From the NCBI GenBank assembly GCA_024403185.1, contig JAKSSG010000009.1, positions 1 through 51,534 of the forward strand: 51,534 bases of DNA, given 5' to 3'. The stretch comes from Clostridia bacterium (GTDB lineage: Bacteria > Bacillota > Clostridia > Peptostreptococcales > Anaerovoracaceae). Positions 31,739-37,593 of the stretch are shown piece after piece. Below the pieces are notes generated by a model. That model was not told the origin of the DNA, did no database searches, and worked only from the letters and a program-made list of their open reading frames with translations. Both the position numbers and the translations under genes were made by a program. The first letter of the stretch is position 1. The number at the start of each line of letters is the position of its first letter.

Positions 31739-31767
31739 TTGCAAAAGCAATAAAGCACGAGTATAAT
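31739..31767 (+). promoter_or_regulatory. promoter of the T-box operon
   Basis: TTGCAA, a 17-base spacer and TATAAT. Transcription is expected to start near 31774, just before T-box stem I. Confidence 0.75.
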
Positions 31768-31779
31768 ACATCCATAATT

Positions 31780-32055
31780 AAATAACACCTAAAGGCTTTG
31801 ACCGGGAAGAAGTAAGTTCGAAGGAAGCTTTCAGAGAGTTGTCGGCTGGTGTGAGACAACAGCAAGAGCGAACCGAATACATTCCGTGAGCTGCGCACTT
31901 AAAAGGTGCGACGGGTTGTGCCCGTAACAGCACAAGGGTATAAACATTTTTAATGTCGTACTTGTTGAGGCTGACTTTGCGAGAGGTCAGTAAATAGAGG
32001 TGGTACCGCGAAACAATCGCCCTCTATCCGTAATGGATAGAGGGCTTTCTCATTA
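31780..32055 (+). promoter_or_regulatory. T-box riboswitch, tyrosine specifier
   Basis: A complete T-box leader. Stem I shows the K-turn segment GGGAAGAAGTAAG, the apical AGAGAG and GGCTGGTGTGAG bulge motifs, and the specifier loop CGAA-TAC-A-TTCC with codon UAC (31878-31880), aligned as in Bacillus glyQS, where GGC occupies this place. A hairpin CTGAC/GTCAG precedes the T-box sequence GGTGGTACCGCG around 32001-32010. The bulge UGGU predicts pairing with ACCA, i.e. discriminator A73, which tRNA-Tyr has. The competing terminator is GCCCTCTATCC/GGATAGAGGGC with TTTCT after it (32019-32050). Uncharged tRNA-Tyr should allow read-through into the CoA ligase and transporter genes. It occupies nearly the whole 364-base gap before the ligase. 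Confidence 0.95.
32019..32050 (+). terminator. T-box-controlled terminator
   Basis: An 11-bp stem (32019-32029 with 32035-32045), loop GTAAT, then TTTCT. Its 5' arm can instead pair with TAGAGG before the T-box sequence to form the antiterminator. Confidence 0.88.
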
Positions 32056-32094
32056 TAAGACCTCTGACAAGCGACAAAGGCAAAGGAGGACAAA

Positions 32095-33732
32095 ATGCCT
32101 ATTACTGAATTACTTGAAAGAAATGCACGTGAATTCCCATTTGACATCAGCCTGGTTGAAATCAATCCGGAGGCTGAGGCAAACGCACGCAGAACATGGA
32201 AGGAATACGAACTGATCGAATCCAACCCTCACGATGTGGGAAGAAAAGAAATGACCTGGAGCGAATTCGATCAGAAGGCAAACAGATTCGCCAACCTGCT
32301 TCTCACCAGAGGCGTGAAGAAAGGCGACAAGATTGCAATTCTCATGATGAACTGCATCGACTGGCTGCCGGTATATTTCGGAATACTGAAGACCGGCGCC
32401 CTTGCCGTTCCGCTCAACTTCAGATACACGGCAGATGAAATCAAGTACTGCCTGAAGAAGGCCGACTGTTCCGGTCTGGTCTTCGGTTCTGAATTCGTTG
32501 GACGTATGGAGAGCATCTGCGATGCGATTCCTAAGGTTCGCACCCTTCTCTACGTTGGAGAGGACTGCCCTACCTTCGCGGACAGCTACGACCAGTACAT
32601 TGAATACTGCTCGGACAAAAAGCCTGCAATTGAGATAACCGACAATGATGACGGAGCAATCTACTTCTCATCGGGAACTACAGGCTTCCCTAAGGCGATT
32701 CTCCACAAGCACCGTTCACTGTCCCACTCTGCAAAGTGCGAACAGAACCACCACAGACAGACTAAGAACGACGTATTCCTCTGCATCCCTCCTCTCTACC
32801 ATACGGGAGCCAAGATGCACTGGTTCGGCAGTCTCTTTTCGGGAAGCAAGGCTGTCATCCTCAAGGGAACGAAGCCTGAATACATTCTGAAGGCTGCGTC
32901 CGACGAGCGCTGCACCATAGTATGGCTTCTAGTTCCATGGGCACAGGATATTCTGGATGCGATTGAATCCGGTGAGGTGAATCTGAAAGACTACCAGCTT
33001 GATCAGTGGAGACTGATGCACATAGGTGCACAGCCTGTACCGCCAAGCCTCATTAAGAGATGGCACGGTGTATTCCCTCATCACGATTACGATACAAACT
33101 ACGGTCTGTCCGAATCAATCGGACCCGGCTGCGTTCACCTGGGGCTGGAGAACGTACACAAGGTTGGTGCAATCGGCAAGGCCGGCTACGGATGGAAGAC
33201 CAGAATTGTTGATACTGAGAGAAATGACGTTGAACCGGGACAGGTTGGCGAACTGGCAGTATCAGGCCCGGGAGTCATGACCTGCTACTACAATGACCCT
33301 GAAGCTACAGCCGAGGTTCTTGAAGACGGCTGGCTCTTTACAGGCGACATGGCCGAAATGGACGAAGACGGTTTCATCTATCTGGTAGACAGAAAGAAGG
33401 ACGTAATCATCTCAGGCGGCGAAAACATCTACCCTGTTCAGATTGAGGACTTCCTCAGAAAACACGAAGACATTAAGGACGTTGCCGTTATCGGACTTCC
33501 GGATGCACGTCTTGGAGAAATTGCGGCTGCAATCATCGAACTCAAGGAAGGCCGCGATGTATACGAAGAAGCAATCGAGGACTTCTGCATAGATCTGCCT
33601 CGCTACAAGAGACCTAGAAAGATCATATTCGCAGATGTACCTCGTAACCCTACGGGAAAAATAGAAAAGCCACTGCTCCGCAAGCGCTACAACGCAGAAA
33701 ACGTAGTCGCCAAGGAAGTGGAAAAGGAATGA
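32095..33732 (+). CDS. AMP-forming acyl/aryl-CoA ligase
   Basis: A 545-residue member of the ANL superfamily, which activates a carboxylic acid with ATP and transfers it to CoA. The P-loop is FSSGTTGFPK (191-200). TNYGLSES is the A5 motif, DGWLFTGDMAEMDEDGF is A7, and DRKKDVIISGGENIYP is the A8 hinge. The adenylation lysine is in NPTGKIEKP near the C-terminus, so the enzyme looks intact. The substrate cannot be read from sequence. Control by a tyrosine T-box and the following transporter suggest an aromatic acid derived from or related to tyrosine (inference). AAGGAGG precedes the ATG. Confidence 0.9.
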   Translation: MPITELLERNAREFPFDISLVEINPEAEANARRTWKEYELIESNPHDVGRKEMTWSEFDQKANRFANLLLTRGVKKGDKIAILMMNCIDWLPVYFGILKTGALAVPLNFRYTADEIKYCLKKADCSGLVFGSEFVGRMESICDAIPKVRTLLYVGEDCPTFADSYDQYIEYCSDKKPAIEITDNDDGAIYFSSGTTGFPKAILHKHRSLSHSAKCEQNHHRQTKNDVFLCIPPLYHTGAKMHWFGSLFSGSKAVILKGTKPEYILKAASDERCTIVWLLVPWAQDILDAIESGEVNLKDYQLDQWRLMHIGAQPVPPSLIKRWHGVFPHHDYDTNYGLSESIGPGCVHLGLENVHKVGAIGKAGYGWKTRIVDTERNDVEPGQVGELAVSGPGVMTCYYNDPEATAEVLEDGWLFTGDMAEMDEDGFIYLVDRKKDVIISGGENIYPVQIEDFLRKHEDIKDVAVIGLPDARLGEIAAAIIELKEGRDVYEEAIEDFCIDLPRYKRPRKIIFADVPRNPTGKIEKPLLRKRYNAENVVAKEVEKE

Positions 33733-33774
33733 GTCGTTGTTTCCGTTTCTGACTGACTCATTATGGTGAATAAA

Positions 33775-34974
33775 ATGAATAAGAACAATAACATACGTTG
33801 GTTGTTTCTTGCCTTTGGATCACTGACCCTGCTGCTGGGCGGTCTGATTTACTCCTGGTCCATTCTCAAGTCACCGCTGGCAGGCGAGTTCGGATGGAAC
33901 CCGACCCAGCTGGCACTTAACTTCACAATAACAATATGCTGCTTCGGAATCGGAGGACTCATCTCCGGGTTCCTGGCGAAAAAGCTGTCGCCGAGAGTAA
34001 GACTCATCGGCAGTGCAGTTCTGGTATTTATCGGTTTTTTCCTTTCATCAAAGGTTGGTGCCGACAGCCTGGGCATGCTCTACGTTTCGTACGGCGTGCT
34101 TGGCGGCATAGGCATAGGTGTTCTCTACAACACTACAATTGCAACCATTGGCGAATGGTTTCCTGACAAGAAGGGTCTGGCATCAGGCATCATGCTCATG
34201 TGCTTCGGATTTTCAACTCTGATTTTCGGCAGCCTGGCCGGAAGCCTTATTGCCAATCCGGGTTTCGGATGGAGAAAGACCTACCTCCTCATGGGTGCAG
34301 TCATGGCCGCAGTAGTATTTGTCTTCGGACTGATTGTACGTCGCCCTGCTACACCTGTTAACGCAGCCGCCAAACCGGTAGCTGCATCGAGCACACGCGA
34401 TTTCACAGCTGCGGAAATGCTCAAGACGGGCACCTTCTGGAAGCTGTTCATCGCGCTTACCCTGCTTGCCTCAATCGGAAATGTATGCCTGAGCTTCGCC
34501 AAGGACTTTGCAATGTTCACGGGCTCAGCTGAAACAACAGCCATTACCATCGTTGGAATCATGTCAGTGTGCAACGGACTCGGCAGACTCTTCGCAGGTG
34601 CAATTTACGACAACCTGTCCCTCAGGAAAACTCAGCTTGTAATTACAGTAATAATGCTCCTGGCGCCTGTTGTAGGCATTCTGGCAATTGCAACGGGCGG
34701 CAAAATCGCTGGAATTCTGGCACTGCTGGTATGCGGCTTCAGCTACGGCCTCTGCCCTACCACATCGGCGGTATACCCGAAGCTCTTCTTCGGTGAAAAG
34801 AATTACGCGCTGAACTTCAGCATCACAAACCTGACGCTGATTCCTACCTCATTCGTCGCAACTCTTGCAGGAGCCATACTTACATCAACAGGATCATACA
34901 TGCCGGTCTTCGGCCTGCTCCTTGCATTCGGAATCATCGGCAGCATCTCGCTGCTGCTGATAAAGAAAGATTAA
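33775..34974 (+). CDS. MFS transporter, OFA (oxalate/formate antiporter) family
   Basis: A 399-residue permease with 12 predicted helices. The OFA pattern is clear: LGGIGIGVLYNTTIATIGEWFPDKKG, with GLASG and the GFG segment following, then a central hydrophilic loop near 205-220. OFA members exchange monocarboxylates or dicarboxylates. I start at MNKNNN because GGTGA precedes it; an in-frame ATG at 33763 is the alternative. It lies 42 bases after the CoA ligase with no terminator between, so both are under the T-box. It probably imports the ligase substrate or exports an end product. Confidence 0.9.
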   Translation: MNKNNNIRWLFLAFGSLTLLLGGLIYSWSILKSPLAGEFGWNPTQLALNFTITICCFGIGGLISGFLAKKLSPRVRLIGSAVLVFIGFFLSSKVGADSLGMLYVSYGVLGGIGIGVLYNTTIATIGEWFPDKKGLASGIMLMCFGFSTLIFGSLAGSLIANPGFGWRKTYLLMGAVMAAVVFVFGLIVRRPATPVNAAAKPVAASSTRDFTAAEMLKTGTFWKLFIALTLLASIGNVCLSFAKDFAMFTGSAETTAITIVGIMSVCNGLGRLFAGAIYDNLSLRKTQLVITVIMLLAPVVGILAIATGGKIAGILALLVCGFSYGLCPTTSAVYPKLFFGEKNYALNFSITNLTLIPTSFVATLAGAILTSTGSYMPVFGLLLAFGIIGSISLLLIKKD

Positions 34975-35030
34975 ACCGCGAGGGAAGACAGTCACGCAGG
35001 TTTCTGTCCGTTGATAAAGCGATTATTAAA

Positions 35031-35081
35031 AAACCTCCCGGAGAGGAAGACACCGTAGTGACTGTCTGATCCGGGAGGTTT
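35031..35081. terminator. bidirectional terminator between the MFS gene and pta
   Basis: Twelve-base arms AAACCTCCCGGA (35031-35042) and TCCGGGAGGTTT (35070-35081). On the minus strand the hairpin is followed by a TTTTTT run and ends pta; on the plus strand the T-tract is weaker. The loop is unusually long (27 bases) and contains one arm of a second inverted repeat. Confidence 0.85.
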
Positions 35082-35101
35082 AATTATTCTTTTGAATAAG
35101 C

Positions 35102-36079
35102 TTATGCGAGTGCTGCTGTGATGATAGCCATTGTGTAAACTTCTTCAGCGTTGCAGCCTCTTGACAGGTCATTGATTGGAGCATTCAGACCCTGGAGTAC
35201 AGGACCGTATGCATCAAATCCGCCCAGTCTCTGAGCGATCTTGTAGCCGATGTTTCCTGCATTGATGTCAGGGAAGATGAATACGTTAGCCTGACCTGCA
35301 ACCTTGCTGTCCTTGCACTTTGTCTTTGCAACTACAGGTGATACTGAAGCGTCAAACTGCAGTTCGCCGTCGATGTCAAGGTCTGGAGCTGCTTCCTGAG
35401 CCAGCTTTGTAGCTTCAACCATCTTGTCAACATCTTCACCTGCGCCTGAGCCCTTTGTTGAGTATGAGAGCATTGCAACCTTAGGGTCAACGCCGAAAAT
35501 CTTGGCAGTTCTTGCTGATTCAACAGCACACTCTGCGATTTCTTCCACGCTTGGCTTGATGTTGATTGCGCAGTCGCCCATTCCCAGGATTTCAGGATCT
35601 GAGCCGTCTTCGTGTTCTCTTACCATGATGAAGACTGATGATACGCTCTTGTTACCAGGCTTTGTCTTGATCAGCTGGAGAGCCGGTCTTACTGTATCTG
35701 CTGTTGAGTATGTAGCTCCGCCCAGAAGTGCATCAGCTTCGCCCATCTTAACCAGCATTGTTCCGAAGTAGTTACCCTTTGAAAGAGCTGCTCTGCACTG
35801 TTCCTCGTCCATCTTGCCCTTTCTCAGTTCTACCATTTTATCTACCATTGCATCCATGCCTTCATAAGTCAGTGGATCAAGGATTTCAAGTCCGTCGATG
35901 TCGAATCCGCCATCAGCTGCTGCCTTCTTTACTTCGTCAACGTTTCCTACCAGTACAGGTGTCAGGAATCCGCCCTTCTTAAGTCTGTCTGCAGCTTCCA
36001 GAATTCTTGGATCAGGACCTTCTGTAAATACGATTTTTCTTGGATTTGCTTTCAGAATTTCTACCAGATTTTCAAACAT
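35102..36079 (-). CDS. pta: phosphate acetyltransferase
   Basis: A 325-residue enzyme converting acetyl-CoA and phosphate to acetyl phosphate for ATP formation during fermentation. The short single-domain Pta form is seen in full: FTEGPDPRILEAADRL at the N-terminus, LLGGATYSTADTVRPALQLI in the middle, MLSYSTKGSGAGEDVDKM, and NVFIFPDINAGNIGYKIAQR near the C-terminus. An AAGGA site precedes the ATG. No ackA is adjacent. It has its own promoter and terminator. Confidence 0.96.
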   Translation of the reverse strand: MFENLVEILKANPRKIVFTEGPDPRILEAADRLKKGGFLTPVLVGNVDEVKKAAADGGFDIDGLEILDPLTYEGMDAMVDKMVELRKGKMDEEQCRAALSKGNYFGTMLVKMGEADALLGGATYSTADTVRPALQLIKTKPGNKSVSSVFIMVREHEDGSDPEILGMGDCAINIKPSVEEIAECAVESARTAKIFGVDPKVAMLSYSTKGSGAGEDVDKMVEATKLAQEAAPDLDIDGELQFDASVSPVVAKTKCKDSKVAGQANVFIFPDINAGNIGYKIAQRLGGFDAYGPVLQGLNAPINDLSRGCNAEEVYTMAIITAALA

Positions 36080-36152
36080 TTCTATACGTTCCTTTCTTTT
36101 AATATTAGCGCAAAGGCAGCCGCCCCTACGTTATCTCACAAACAACGCATTT

Positions 36153-36181
36153 ATTATAGCACAAATCACTTTACTTGTGCT
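36153..36181 (-). promoter_or_regulatory. pta promoter with overlapping inverted repeat
   Basis: Minus-strand TGCTATAAT (36153-36161) lies about 75 bases before pta. The inverted repeat AGCACAA (36158-36164) and TTGTGCT (36175-36181), 10 bases apart, covers the spacer and -35 position and is a candidate operator. Confidence 0.5.
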
Positions 36182-36251
36182 CTCCGCTTTTAACCTTTTC
36201 AAGGAGTTTTTCCGGATCCTTCAGATCCTCTTCCGATTCATAAAATACTGC
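36171..36251 (-). pseudogene. short charged reading frame without start codon, possible remnant
   Basis: A 26-codon minus-strand frame with coding-like composition, rich in Glu and Lys (ESEEDLKDPEKLLEKVKSG). It has no ATG, GTG or TTG, but an extended -10 (TGCTATAAT, 36256-36264) lies just upstream at the spacing at which leaderless genes of this window begin. It may be a degraded micro-gene or the end of a lost gene. No family recognised; low confidence. Confidence 0.25.
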
Positions 36252-36255
36252 TCAC

Positions 36256-36264
36256 ATTATAGCA
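36256..36264 (-). promoter_or_regulatory. extended -10 element between the permease gene and pta
   Basis: Minus-strand TGCTATAAT directly after the T-tract of the upstream terminator. It could be a second, distal promoter for pta or drive the short charged frame at 36171-36251. Confidence 0.45.
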
Positions 36265-36295
36265 CAAAAAAAGAGACCTGAATTATCAGGTCTCT
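36264..36295 (-). terminator. terminator after the ArsB/NhaD-type permease gene
   Basis: AGAGACCTGA and TCAGGTCTCT form a 10-bp stem with a four-base loop; on the minus strand TTTTTTT follows. Confidence 0.9.
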
Positions 36296-36312
36296 TAATA
36301 TTATGTCTTGGA

Positions 36313-37593
36313 TTAGCTCCAGTATCCACCAAAGAGCACCAGCAGATAAATAGTAGCCAGTACTGCAGACATAAGCATCATAGGGCCACCAACCTTCAGG
36401 AAGTCGATGAATGTGATAGGATATCCTCTTCTGTTTGCAATACCTGACAGAACAACGTTGGCTGATGCACCAATGAGTGTTCCGTTTCCACCGAAGCATG
36501 CTCCGATCGATACAGCCCACCAGAGCGGCCATACATCCAGACCTGCGTCTGCCATCTGCTGAATAAGCGGAATAAGTGTTGCAACAAACGGAATGTTATC
36601 CAGTACTGCTGAGCAGATTGCTGATACCCACAGCAGAGCAATCATGAGAACAACGTAGTGTGTTCCTGTTGCATCCATCATTGTTACTGCCAGCATGTGG
36701 ATCAGGCCAACCTTTTCCAGACCGCCAACTACGATGAACAGGAATGCGAAGAATACGATTGTAGGCCATTCAACATCGTGAACGGTTTCTTCTACGTCCT
36801 GCTTGCCGATGAGGATCATCAGAGCTGCACATGAAAGTGCGATTACTGATGTCTTCAGTCCAAGCGTATCGTGAAGGATGAATGCCAGTGCAACCAGGCA
36901 GATCATTACGATGCTCTTGATGAAGAGTGCGTGGTCTCTGATTTCCTTCTTCTCATCCATCTGCATTATCAGTTCCATCTTTTCAGGTGTTACTGTCAAA
37001 CCCTTTCTGTACATGAATCTGAATGCGATGATTGTTGCAGCCATTACGATTATAACGATAGGTCCGTCATAGATGCAGAACTGTGCAAATGAAATATCTG
37101 CGGCTGAACCGATCATGATATTTGGAGGGTCGCCGATAAGTGTTGCAGTTCCGCCAACGTTTGATGAGATGATCTGTGTTAACAGATATGGAATCGGATT
37201 GAGTTCCAGTGTCTTGCAGATACTGAAAGTCATAGGTCCTATAAGAAGAACAGTTGTAACGTTGTCCAGGAATGCTGAAAGAACAGCTGTAATAATCATG
37301 AAGTAAACCATGATCTTCCAAGGATCTCCCTTGGCGATTCTGGCAGCCTTAACAGCCAGATATTCGAATATTCCGGAATTCTTTACAACTGCAACGAACA
37401 TCATCATTCCGATGAGTACGCCTATTGTGTTAAAGTCAATAAAGCCCAGGGCCTCTGCCGGTTCGAGTATTCCGATAAGGATGAGCAGTACGGCACCAAT
37501 CAGTGCGCATGCAGCTCTGTGCAGCTTTTCGGATACGATAACAGCAATTACGGCCACAAATATAGCTAAAGCGATAATTTGTGATGCAGTCAT
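36313..37593 (-). CDS. ArsB/NhaD-type SLC13-like permease
   Basis: A 426-residue membrane protein with about 11-12 helices of the ion transporter superfamily. Diagnostic segments are SAFLDNVTTVLLIGPMTFS, SSNVGGTATLIGDPPNIMIG and, in the second half, SAVLDNIPFVATLIPL and GGNGTLIGASANVV, showing the two-fold inverted repeat. The substrate may be sodium/proton, arsenite or an organic anion; the sequence does not decide. No arsenic genes flank it. AGAGGAG precedes the ATG; it is monocistronic with its own terminator. Confidence 0.87.
   Translation of the reverse strand: MTASQIIALAIFVAVIAVIVSEKLHRAACALIGAVLLILIGILEPAEALGFIDFNTIGVLIGMMMFVAVVKNSGIFEYLAVKAARIAKGDPWKIMVYFMIITAVLSAFLDNVTTVLLIGPMTFSICKTLELNPIPYLLTQIISSNVGGTATLIGDPPNIMIGSAADISFAQFCIYDGPIVIIVMAATIIAFRFMYRKGLTVTPEKMELIMQMDEKKEIRDHALFIKSIVMICLVALAFILHDTLGLKTSVIALSCAALMILIGKQDVEETVHDVEWPTIVFFAFLFIVVGGLEKVGLIHMLAVTMMDATGTHYVVLMIALLWVSAICSAVLDNIPFVATLIPLIQQMADAGLDVWPLWWAVSIGACFGGNGTLIGASANVVLSGIANRRGYPITFIDFLKVGGPMMLMSAVLATIYLLVLFGGYWS

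Follow-up and report, generated by a model that had tools for sequence, protein, structure and literature searches.

A tyrosine-codon T-box leader before a CoA ligase and a transporter in a Clostridia bacterium: a candidate aryl-acid salvage operon

T-box leaders of class RF00230 (tyrS-type) act by transcription antitermination, and in passages of the survey PMC2494555 the tyrosine members control tyrS, the tyrosine biosynthesis operon, NhaC-type transporters, and phenylalanine hydroxylase. Here, we describe a leader of this class in a 51,534-nucleotide stretch of a Clostridia bacterium of the family Anaerovoracaceae (GenBank assembly GCA_024403185.1, contig JAKSSG010000009.1, positions 1 to 51,534, forward strand). 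This whole stretch is termed the window, and coordinates refer to it unless another locus is named. Stem I, the UAC specifier, the UGGN bulge, the antiterminator, and the terminator of the class are all present in the window leader. Distinct from the tyrosine T-boxes of PMC2494555, it precedes genes for a coenzyme A (CoA) ligase and a major facilitator superfamily (MFS) transporter; a term search of the survey's main text gave neither CoA ligase nor phenylacet- nor oxidoreductase. We propose to read the unit as an operon for aryl-acid salvage that responds to tyrosine and would activate an arylacetate for tyrosine synthesis, and, judging from sequence, we put the probability of this reading at about three in four.

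The route from aryl acids to aromatic amino acids is known in methanogens and rumen bacteria and has been proposed in Bacteroides; this picture is in part general background and in part taken from passages of PMC13285125. The salvage proposed here shares with it an adenosine monophosphate (AMP)-forming aryl ligase and the indolepyruvate:ferredoxin oxidoreductase IorAB, taken in the biosynthetic direction, and differs from it by the codon-matched T-boxes, the non-PaaK ligase family, and the occurrence in Clostridia, a part of which lack tyrA. Passages of PMC7356843 cite Allison 1965 for phenylalanine formed from phenylacetate in rumen anaerobes and state that tyrosine can come from phenylalanine; no hydroxyphenylacetate route is named in them. 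PaaK (phenylacetate-CoA ligase, TIGR02155) is also an AMP-forming aryl-CoA ligase; in some relatives it shares the operon, and in five loci it has phenylalanine T-boxes, whereas the window ligase belongs to a different ANL subfamily with PRK06187-type best matches. The HpdDEFG-HpdJ-HpdK trio of tyrosine fermentation, as presented in passages of PMC13285125, likewise interconverts hydroxyphenylpyruvate and hydroxyphenylacetate via a CoA thioester, but it is catabolic and uses a phosphotransferase and a kinase instead of an AMP-forming ligase; a T-box is not mentioned with it there.

The literature search covered open-access papers, with subscription papers and preprints outside its scope. None joined a T-box riboswitch with phenylacetate-CoA ligase or a T-box specifier with indolepyruvate, and none of the papers listed for T-box with acyl-CoA and ligase held tRNA-Tyr. 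The passages of the TBDB paper (PMC7778990) hold nothing on such leaders, and its data tables, outside the scope of the search, may list individual ones; those of the C. difficile riboswitch review PMC11477304 hold nothing on such T-box control. For the chemistry there is precedent; no description of codon-matched T-boxes controlling it turned up in the searchable open-access papers.

The leader (31789..32027, plus strand) was matched by covariance search to RF00230 with 118.2 bits, above the gathering score of 93 (E 1.2e-25), over the full model (1-219), as the full T-box claimed in an earlier note on this DNA. Its Stem I ends CCGAA-UAC-AUUCCGUGAG, which places the specifier UAC (Tyr) at 31878..31880 (plus strand) both in the sequence and in the covariance alignment. 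By the same two means, the T-box bulge UGGU, which would pair with a tRNA 3' end ACCA (discriminator A), lies at 32001..32004 (plus strand). Folding predicted an intrinsic terminator hairpin at 32019..32045 (plus strand) of -21.9 kcal/mol, which was equalled by 0 of 200 shuffles, and an antiterminator (folded as 31995-32025) of -7.8 kcal/mol, equalled by 15 of 200. The CCCUCU strand, the 5' strand of the terminator, is common to both predicted structures, which are mutually exclusive. A promoter-like site, TTGCAA-17-TATAAT (31739..31767, plus strand), has 10 of 12 consensus letters; chance matches are expected in the region, where four such sites were found against a mean of 2.9 in shuffles.

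The reading of the specifier was checked against other T-boxes (genomes, contigs, and loci bear our handles G, C, and L). The T-box model gave three T-boxes in the window genome, and the two besides the ligase leader, one preceding ileS and the other a trpB-like gene, carry AUC and UGG, respectively, at the same specifier position. Among the relatives, 29 of 37 T-boxes were assigned to a codon (all but L128, L136, L137, L142, L147, L158, L159, and L163), most of which fit the downstream gene as read by us from its translation: AUC for ileS, GUU or GUC for valS, CUC for leuA, AUG for a metY-like gene, AAC for gatCAB, and UGG for a trpB-like gene. Three assigned T-boxes (L130, L131, and L133) have no obvious fit. 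Both sets of codons support the rule by which UAC was read, so that the tyrosine specifier given in the earlier note stands. The usual context is GAA-UAC-A, with the variants GAAU-UAC-C in L135 and CAA-UAC-A in L177. The T-box of L128, before IorA, has an uncertain specifier (UGG is a guess, as the usual GAA before the codon is missing) and enters no count. The bulge is less telling. That UGGU predicts A73, as in tRNA-Tyr, is correct, but it is weak evidence for this tRNA because A73 is common and because the bulges of Trp-codon T-boxes are mixed, with UGGC in four of six (L003, L129, L130, and L140) and UGGU in two (L131 and L138). No tRNA-Tyr gene was found in the window genome with a single anticodon pattern, for which 18 places were checked by ARAGORN.

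The first gene behind the leader (32095..33732, plus strand) encodes an AMP-forming acyl/aryl-CoA ligase of the ANL type, identified by domain matches and motifs and proposed to be a 4-hydroxyphenylacetate-CoA ligase. The protein is intact (545 amino acids) and matches PF00501 (235.2 bits) and PF13193 (46.1 bits), both above the gathering score. The motifs SSGTTG (192-197), YGLSE (336-340), and GDM (417-419) are conserved, and K522, which we take to be the C-terminal catalytic lysine, is invariant in 9 of 9 aligned rows; the motif names are likewise our assignment. The best NCBIfam match is PRK06187 (422 bits, cut-off 476), and the 25 best of 107 models, whose top score is 422 bits, do not include TIGR02155 (PaaK; cut-off 646 bits). 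In NCBIfam and in the PDB, the protein is best matched by ligases of the long-chain or FadD type. The MFS transporter gene, a candidate for aryl-acid uptake (33763..34974, plus strand), starts 30 bases past the ligase stop. The OFA-type assignment made in the earlier note holds in part: the lactate and oxalate/formate models are the best NCBIfam matches, and the protein falls below all their cut-offs (L-lactate NF049980, 233 of 320 bits; oxalate/formate TIGR00890, 165 of 375 bits).

Orthologues of the ligase were found in 61 of 148 same-family genomes with 57-100% identity, the next matches having 30-36%. A scan of named genomes gave 80 loci, the best 80 of 594 relatives, to which all counts of named loci below refer. 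They are mostly from metagenome-assembled genomes of gut or rumen Clostridia, a few being labelled Lentisphaeria or Victivallales, and the carriers include Ruminococcus flavefaciens YAD2003 and Y1 and R. albus KH2T6, in which no T-box precedes the ligase. A T-box lies directly upstream of the ligase in 6 of the 61 loci from the family, 12 of the 80 named loci, and 16 of the 40 ligase genomes in the genus. After removal of repeats (the named L167, L168, and L169 are the same contigs as G165, G150, and G153 of the genus), these sets, with the window counted once among the 16, make 30 distinct genomes, and the specifier is UAC in all 30. In two further named loci, L180 and L177, a UAC T-box stands before the symporter and heads a symporter-ligase-IorAB run. 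T-box-bearing ligases occupy four places in the ligase tree (57 family rows); four changes are needed, three of them forced by well-supported branches.

Some of these counts depend on how the leaders were found. At the Rfam gathering score, L082, L172, L182, L200, L230, and L180 were confirmed, and L218 and L129 fell below it. Sixteen of the counted leaders went into the model R1, which recovers these by construction. For L034, whose stem I contains a masked stretch, the T-box was detected by pattern only, and G159, with a pattern match at -402 upstream of the codon and no R1 match, was counted as T-box-free. The upstream DNA was missing or short, or the gene was cut, in eight of the 61 family loci (L037, L041, L055, L078, L088, L061, L062, and L063), which gave no verdict on a T-box, in six of the 80 named loci, and in G186; G156 has only 262 bases.

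The neighbourhoods of the ligase point to the reductive carboxylation genes. Around the 61 family loci, with neighbour clusters named through their L082 members, IorA occurs in 13, IorB in 11, PaaK in eight, and an ACT protein in seven. Around the 80 named loci, IorA occurs in 23, of which 19 have it directly downstream of the ligase and on its strand; IorB occurs in 20, a symporter in 19, and PaaK and the ACT protein in 12 each. The symporter resembles sodium/solute symporters, and the single one scanned is below the NCBIfam cut-offs. The run in L082 is T-box(UAC)-ligase-iorA-iorB-paaK-ACT. IorA is present in 59 of 61 ligase genomes and in 53 of the 87 others (p 1.3e-7, without correction for kinship). 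The window genome has two IorA genes, on contigs C11 and C39, both above the 650.9 cut-off; each is adjoined by what we read as an IorB-like open reading frame (ORF), and one also by a PaaK-like ORF. IorAB operates between arylacetyl-CoA and arylpyruvate, which narrows the candidate substrates of the ligase to an arylacetate. A recurrent neighbour of about 1,140 amino acids, first taken for an oxidoreductase, is AddB and belongs to the plain chromosomal context.

On this anatomy, uncharged tRNA-Tyr would pair with the UAC specifier and the UGGU bulge, the antiterminator would form, and the operon would be transcribed. The transporter would import the aryl acid, and the ligase would form its CoA thioester with conversion of adenosine triphosphate to AMP; 4-hydroxyphenylacetate is its likeliest substrate. 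Hydroxyphenylacetyl-CoA may then be carboxylated to 4-hydroxyphenylpyruvate, with reduced ferredoxin and CO2, by one of the two IorAB enzymes that the genome encodes at other places, and a transaminase would convert this product to tyrosine. In the clade of the window, this salvage seems to stand in for a lost prephenate-to-tyrosine step. The carboxylating direction is suggested by the AMP-forming class of the ligase, by a T-box that senses starvation, and by passages of PMC13285125 in which the AMP-forming ligase beside IOR in Bacteroides is reported to be an arylacetate-CoA ligase with a suggested biosynthetic role.

Other T-boxes of the relatives point to related ligases and products. Those before PaaK, IorA, and the symporter were taken from the matches listed for 57 of the 61 ligase genomes (all but G012, G015, G024, and G137) under stricter filters, together with extra loci, and are no census. 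Among the matches listed, the specifier is UUC in five of five T-boxes directly before PaaK (L141, L146, L148, L149, and L150), UAC in five of five directly before the symporter (L135, L139, L143, L177, and L180), and UGG in one before a TrpB-like gene followed by IorAB (L129). Three codons thus seem to direct three aryl acids, each to its own amino acid. In the window genome, a second PaaK lies beside a symporter and an ACT protein. There (L152 1-4600, own contig C26), a partial TrpB-like ORF, the symporter, PaaK, and the ACT protein stand in a row, which would make it a natural counterpart, for phenylacetate, to the unit of the window. Neither this place nor the two IorAB places of the window genome gave a T-box. 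The PaaK scores form two main groups, one of about 480-610 bits and one of about 370-400 bits, and a few lie near 295; the relatives' PaaK are below the TIGR02155 cut-off. PaaK of low score is often found behind IorA where positions are comparable, for example on the own contig C11; this group may be an indoleacetate ligase.

The aro genes were inspected for the tyrosine branch. The own aro operon (contig C21) consists of aroF-aroB-aroA followed by a single 835-amino-acid ORF and is without tyrA and prephenate dehydratase; the latter was sought in the operon and not genome-wide. No match to prephenate dehydrogenase (PF02153) was obtained in the own genome, which is 86.6% complete. The 835-amino-acid ORF (L259 11479-13986) reads as a fusion of chorismate synthase (aroC), chorismate mutase, shikimate dehydrogenase (aroE), and shikimate kinase (aroK). 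The congener G068 has aroF-tyrA-aroB-aroA-aroC-pheA-aroEK, and G127 has the same set; in the congeners G178, G157, G153, G166, and G150, aroF-aroC-aroE stand at the locus, without aroA and aroB there. In the genus, tyrA is absent from 14 of the 16 ligase genomes that have the T-box and from 5 of the 23 that do not (p 7e-5). At the aro locus itself, 11 of 13 loci with the T-box and 1 of 11 without it lack tyrA (p 0.0006), where the T-box-free loci include G173 (tyrA not at the locus seen). The tyrA counted for G163 and G169 is in a second aro cluster. TyrA was counted at the Pfam cut-off, weaker matches being taken as absent, e.g. in the T-box genomes G150, G153, G154, G166, G178, and G182; G165 and G154 are also without a chorismate synthase match, and absence there may be incompleteness.

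The link between T-box and tyrA loss is a tendency inside the genus that rests on few independent events. A strict rule that the T-box ligase replaces TyrA failed over the family, where three of six T-box genomes keep TyrA. The presence of both in G175 and G181 fits, without proving it, a gain of the T-box that preceded the loss of tyrA.

Several results weigh against the salvage reading. The genus association comprises two to three independent switches, and independent pairs cannot reach significance; among genomes at least 90% complete, tyrA is missing in 4 of 6 with the T-box and 3 of 14 without (p 0.12). In the family sample, absence of TyrA is unrelated to the T-box (3 of 6 against 16 of 47 others, p 0.65), and TyrA is kept equally often in ligase carriers (39 of 61) and others (53 of 87). 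The tyrosine T-box and TyrA occur together in G044, G045, G143, G175, and G181, and the completeness of 86.6% limits the absence of tyrA from the window genome. With regard to the unit itself, its T-box belongs to a minority of ligase orthologues by all three counts given above, even with the two T-boxes before the symporter. The IorAB genes of the window genome neither adjoin the ligase nor have a T-box, and the transporter adjoins the ligase in only four close genomes of the genus and 1 of 80 named loci. The ligase is above no NCBIfam cut-off among its best 25 of 107 models. PaaK also lies inside tyrosine T-box operons (L082, L172, L200, and L180), which blurs the division of labour between the two ligases.

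The last point also favours the strongest alternative, which we consider unlikely: that the ligase uses another aromatic acid (phenylpropionate, hydroxyphenylpropionate, or phenylacetate) or arylacetates in general, tyrosine exerting control as the scarcest amino acid. R. albus, which with R. flavefaciens is among the carriers, needs phenylpropionate or phenylacetate as growth factors. The aryl kinases and the ligase assayed in passages of PMC13285125 accept several arylacetates. On the other side, the ligase T-boxes carry the tyrosine codon in all 30 genomes, PaaK has its own phenylalanine (UUC) T-boxes in the five loci with a T-box directly before it, and the adjoining IorAB, from what is known of its family, requires arylacetyl-CoA and not arylpropionyl-CoA. 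A Stickland-type oxidative fermentation, in which tyrosine would pass through hydroxyphenylpyruvate and hydroxyphenylacetyl-CoA to hydroxyphenylacetate with a gain of ATP and export by the transporter, is most improbable. It would agree with the reversibility of the oxidoreductase step, with the fermentative aryl gene clusters of related Clostridia (passages of PMC13285125), and with the phosphotransacetylase gene just downstream on the opposite strand. However, a tyrosine T-box induces at tyrosine shortage, which is the wrong sign for tyrosine as a fuel, and an AMP-forming ligase favours thioester synthesis (passages of PMC13285125). These two points led us to reject fermentation, and the phosphotransacetylase gene, which exceeds the cut-off for ordinary Pta, is convergent. 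A general fatty acyl-CoA ligase placed under a tyrosine T-box by chance recombination, a link without metabolic meaning, has very little to recommend it: the long-chain or FadD-type relatives and the T-box-free majority of orthologues are in its favour, and it was rejected on the conserved UAC codon, the four separate places of T-box ligases in the ligase tree, the repeated IorAB, PaaK, and symporter neighbourhood, and the co-occurrence with IorA.

The salvage reading remains our preference, and most of what the earlier note had suggested agrees with it. A tyrosine-responsive aromatic-acid route is supported by the covariance search, the orthologue specifiers, the IorAB genes, and the missing tyrA match; the survey of orthologues, the search for reductive carboxylation genes, and the search for tyrA, all proposed there as checks, came out in its favour, and the ANL motifs were recovered. 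Of the two fates considered there for the aromatic acid, the route to tyrosine is supported, narrowed to an arylacetate, and fermentation is disfavoured.

A wider scenario for the genus is tentative, and we would place it somewhat short of even odds. In several species, de novo synthesis of tyrosine and phenylalanine may have given way to an obligatory salvage that draws on the arylacetates which amino-acid fermenters excrete. This would have been installed by putting arylacetate ligases and transporters under T-boxes whose codon names the product (tyrosine for the window ligase and the symporter, phenylalanine for PaaK, and tryptophan for IorAB with TrpB), the T-box coming first and tyrA, prephenate dehydratase, and in places aroA/aroB being lost several times afterwards. 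This replacement is weakened by PaaK in tyrosine operons and by the weak control that the tryptophan bulges provide.

If correct, the salvage reading would point to candidate genes for the route by which Clostridia of the gut and rumen turn hydroxyphenylacetate into tyrosine through reductive carboxylation, and the riboswitch codon would give a testable substrate to an unnamed ligase family. It predicts gut bacteria that consume, rather than make, hydroxyphenylacetate, the direct precursor of p-cresol (passages of PMC13285125). A metabolic dependency would then be legible in riboswitch codons.

Downstream of the unit, a strong hairpin, possibly a shared terminator, lies at 35031..35081 between the convergent transporter and phosphotransacetylase genes; no strand is assigned to it. 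The fold of 35005-35100 has -35.6 kcal/mol, equalled by 0 of 200 shuffles. The region 35102-37593, convergent to the ligase unit, carries the phosphotransacetylase gene and a citrate/anion transporter-like gene. Among the other T-boxes of the relatives, those of L147, L158, and L159 (G013, G125, and G062) precede an ORF of about 845 amino acids whose start resembles a sugar-phosphate isomerase/epimerase, and that of L163 (G064 contig C16) precedes pheS-pheT-like ORFs, its specifier being unreadable by the usual GAA rule. In L133 (G127 contig C13), a T-box at 150342-150574 that seems to carry CUC (Leu) precedes a 1176-amino-acid pyruvate:ferredoxin oxidoreductase-like ORF; about 20 kb away on the same contig, a very similar T-box (L134) stands before a leuA-like gene.

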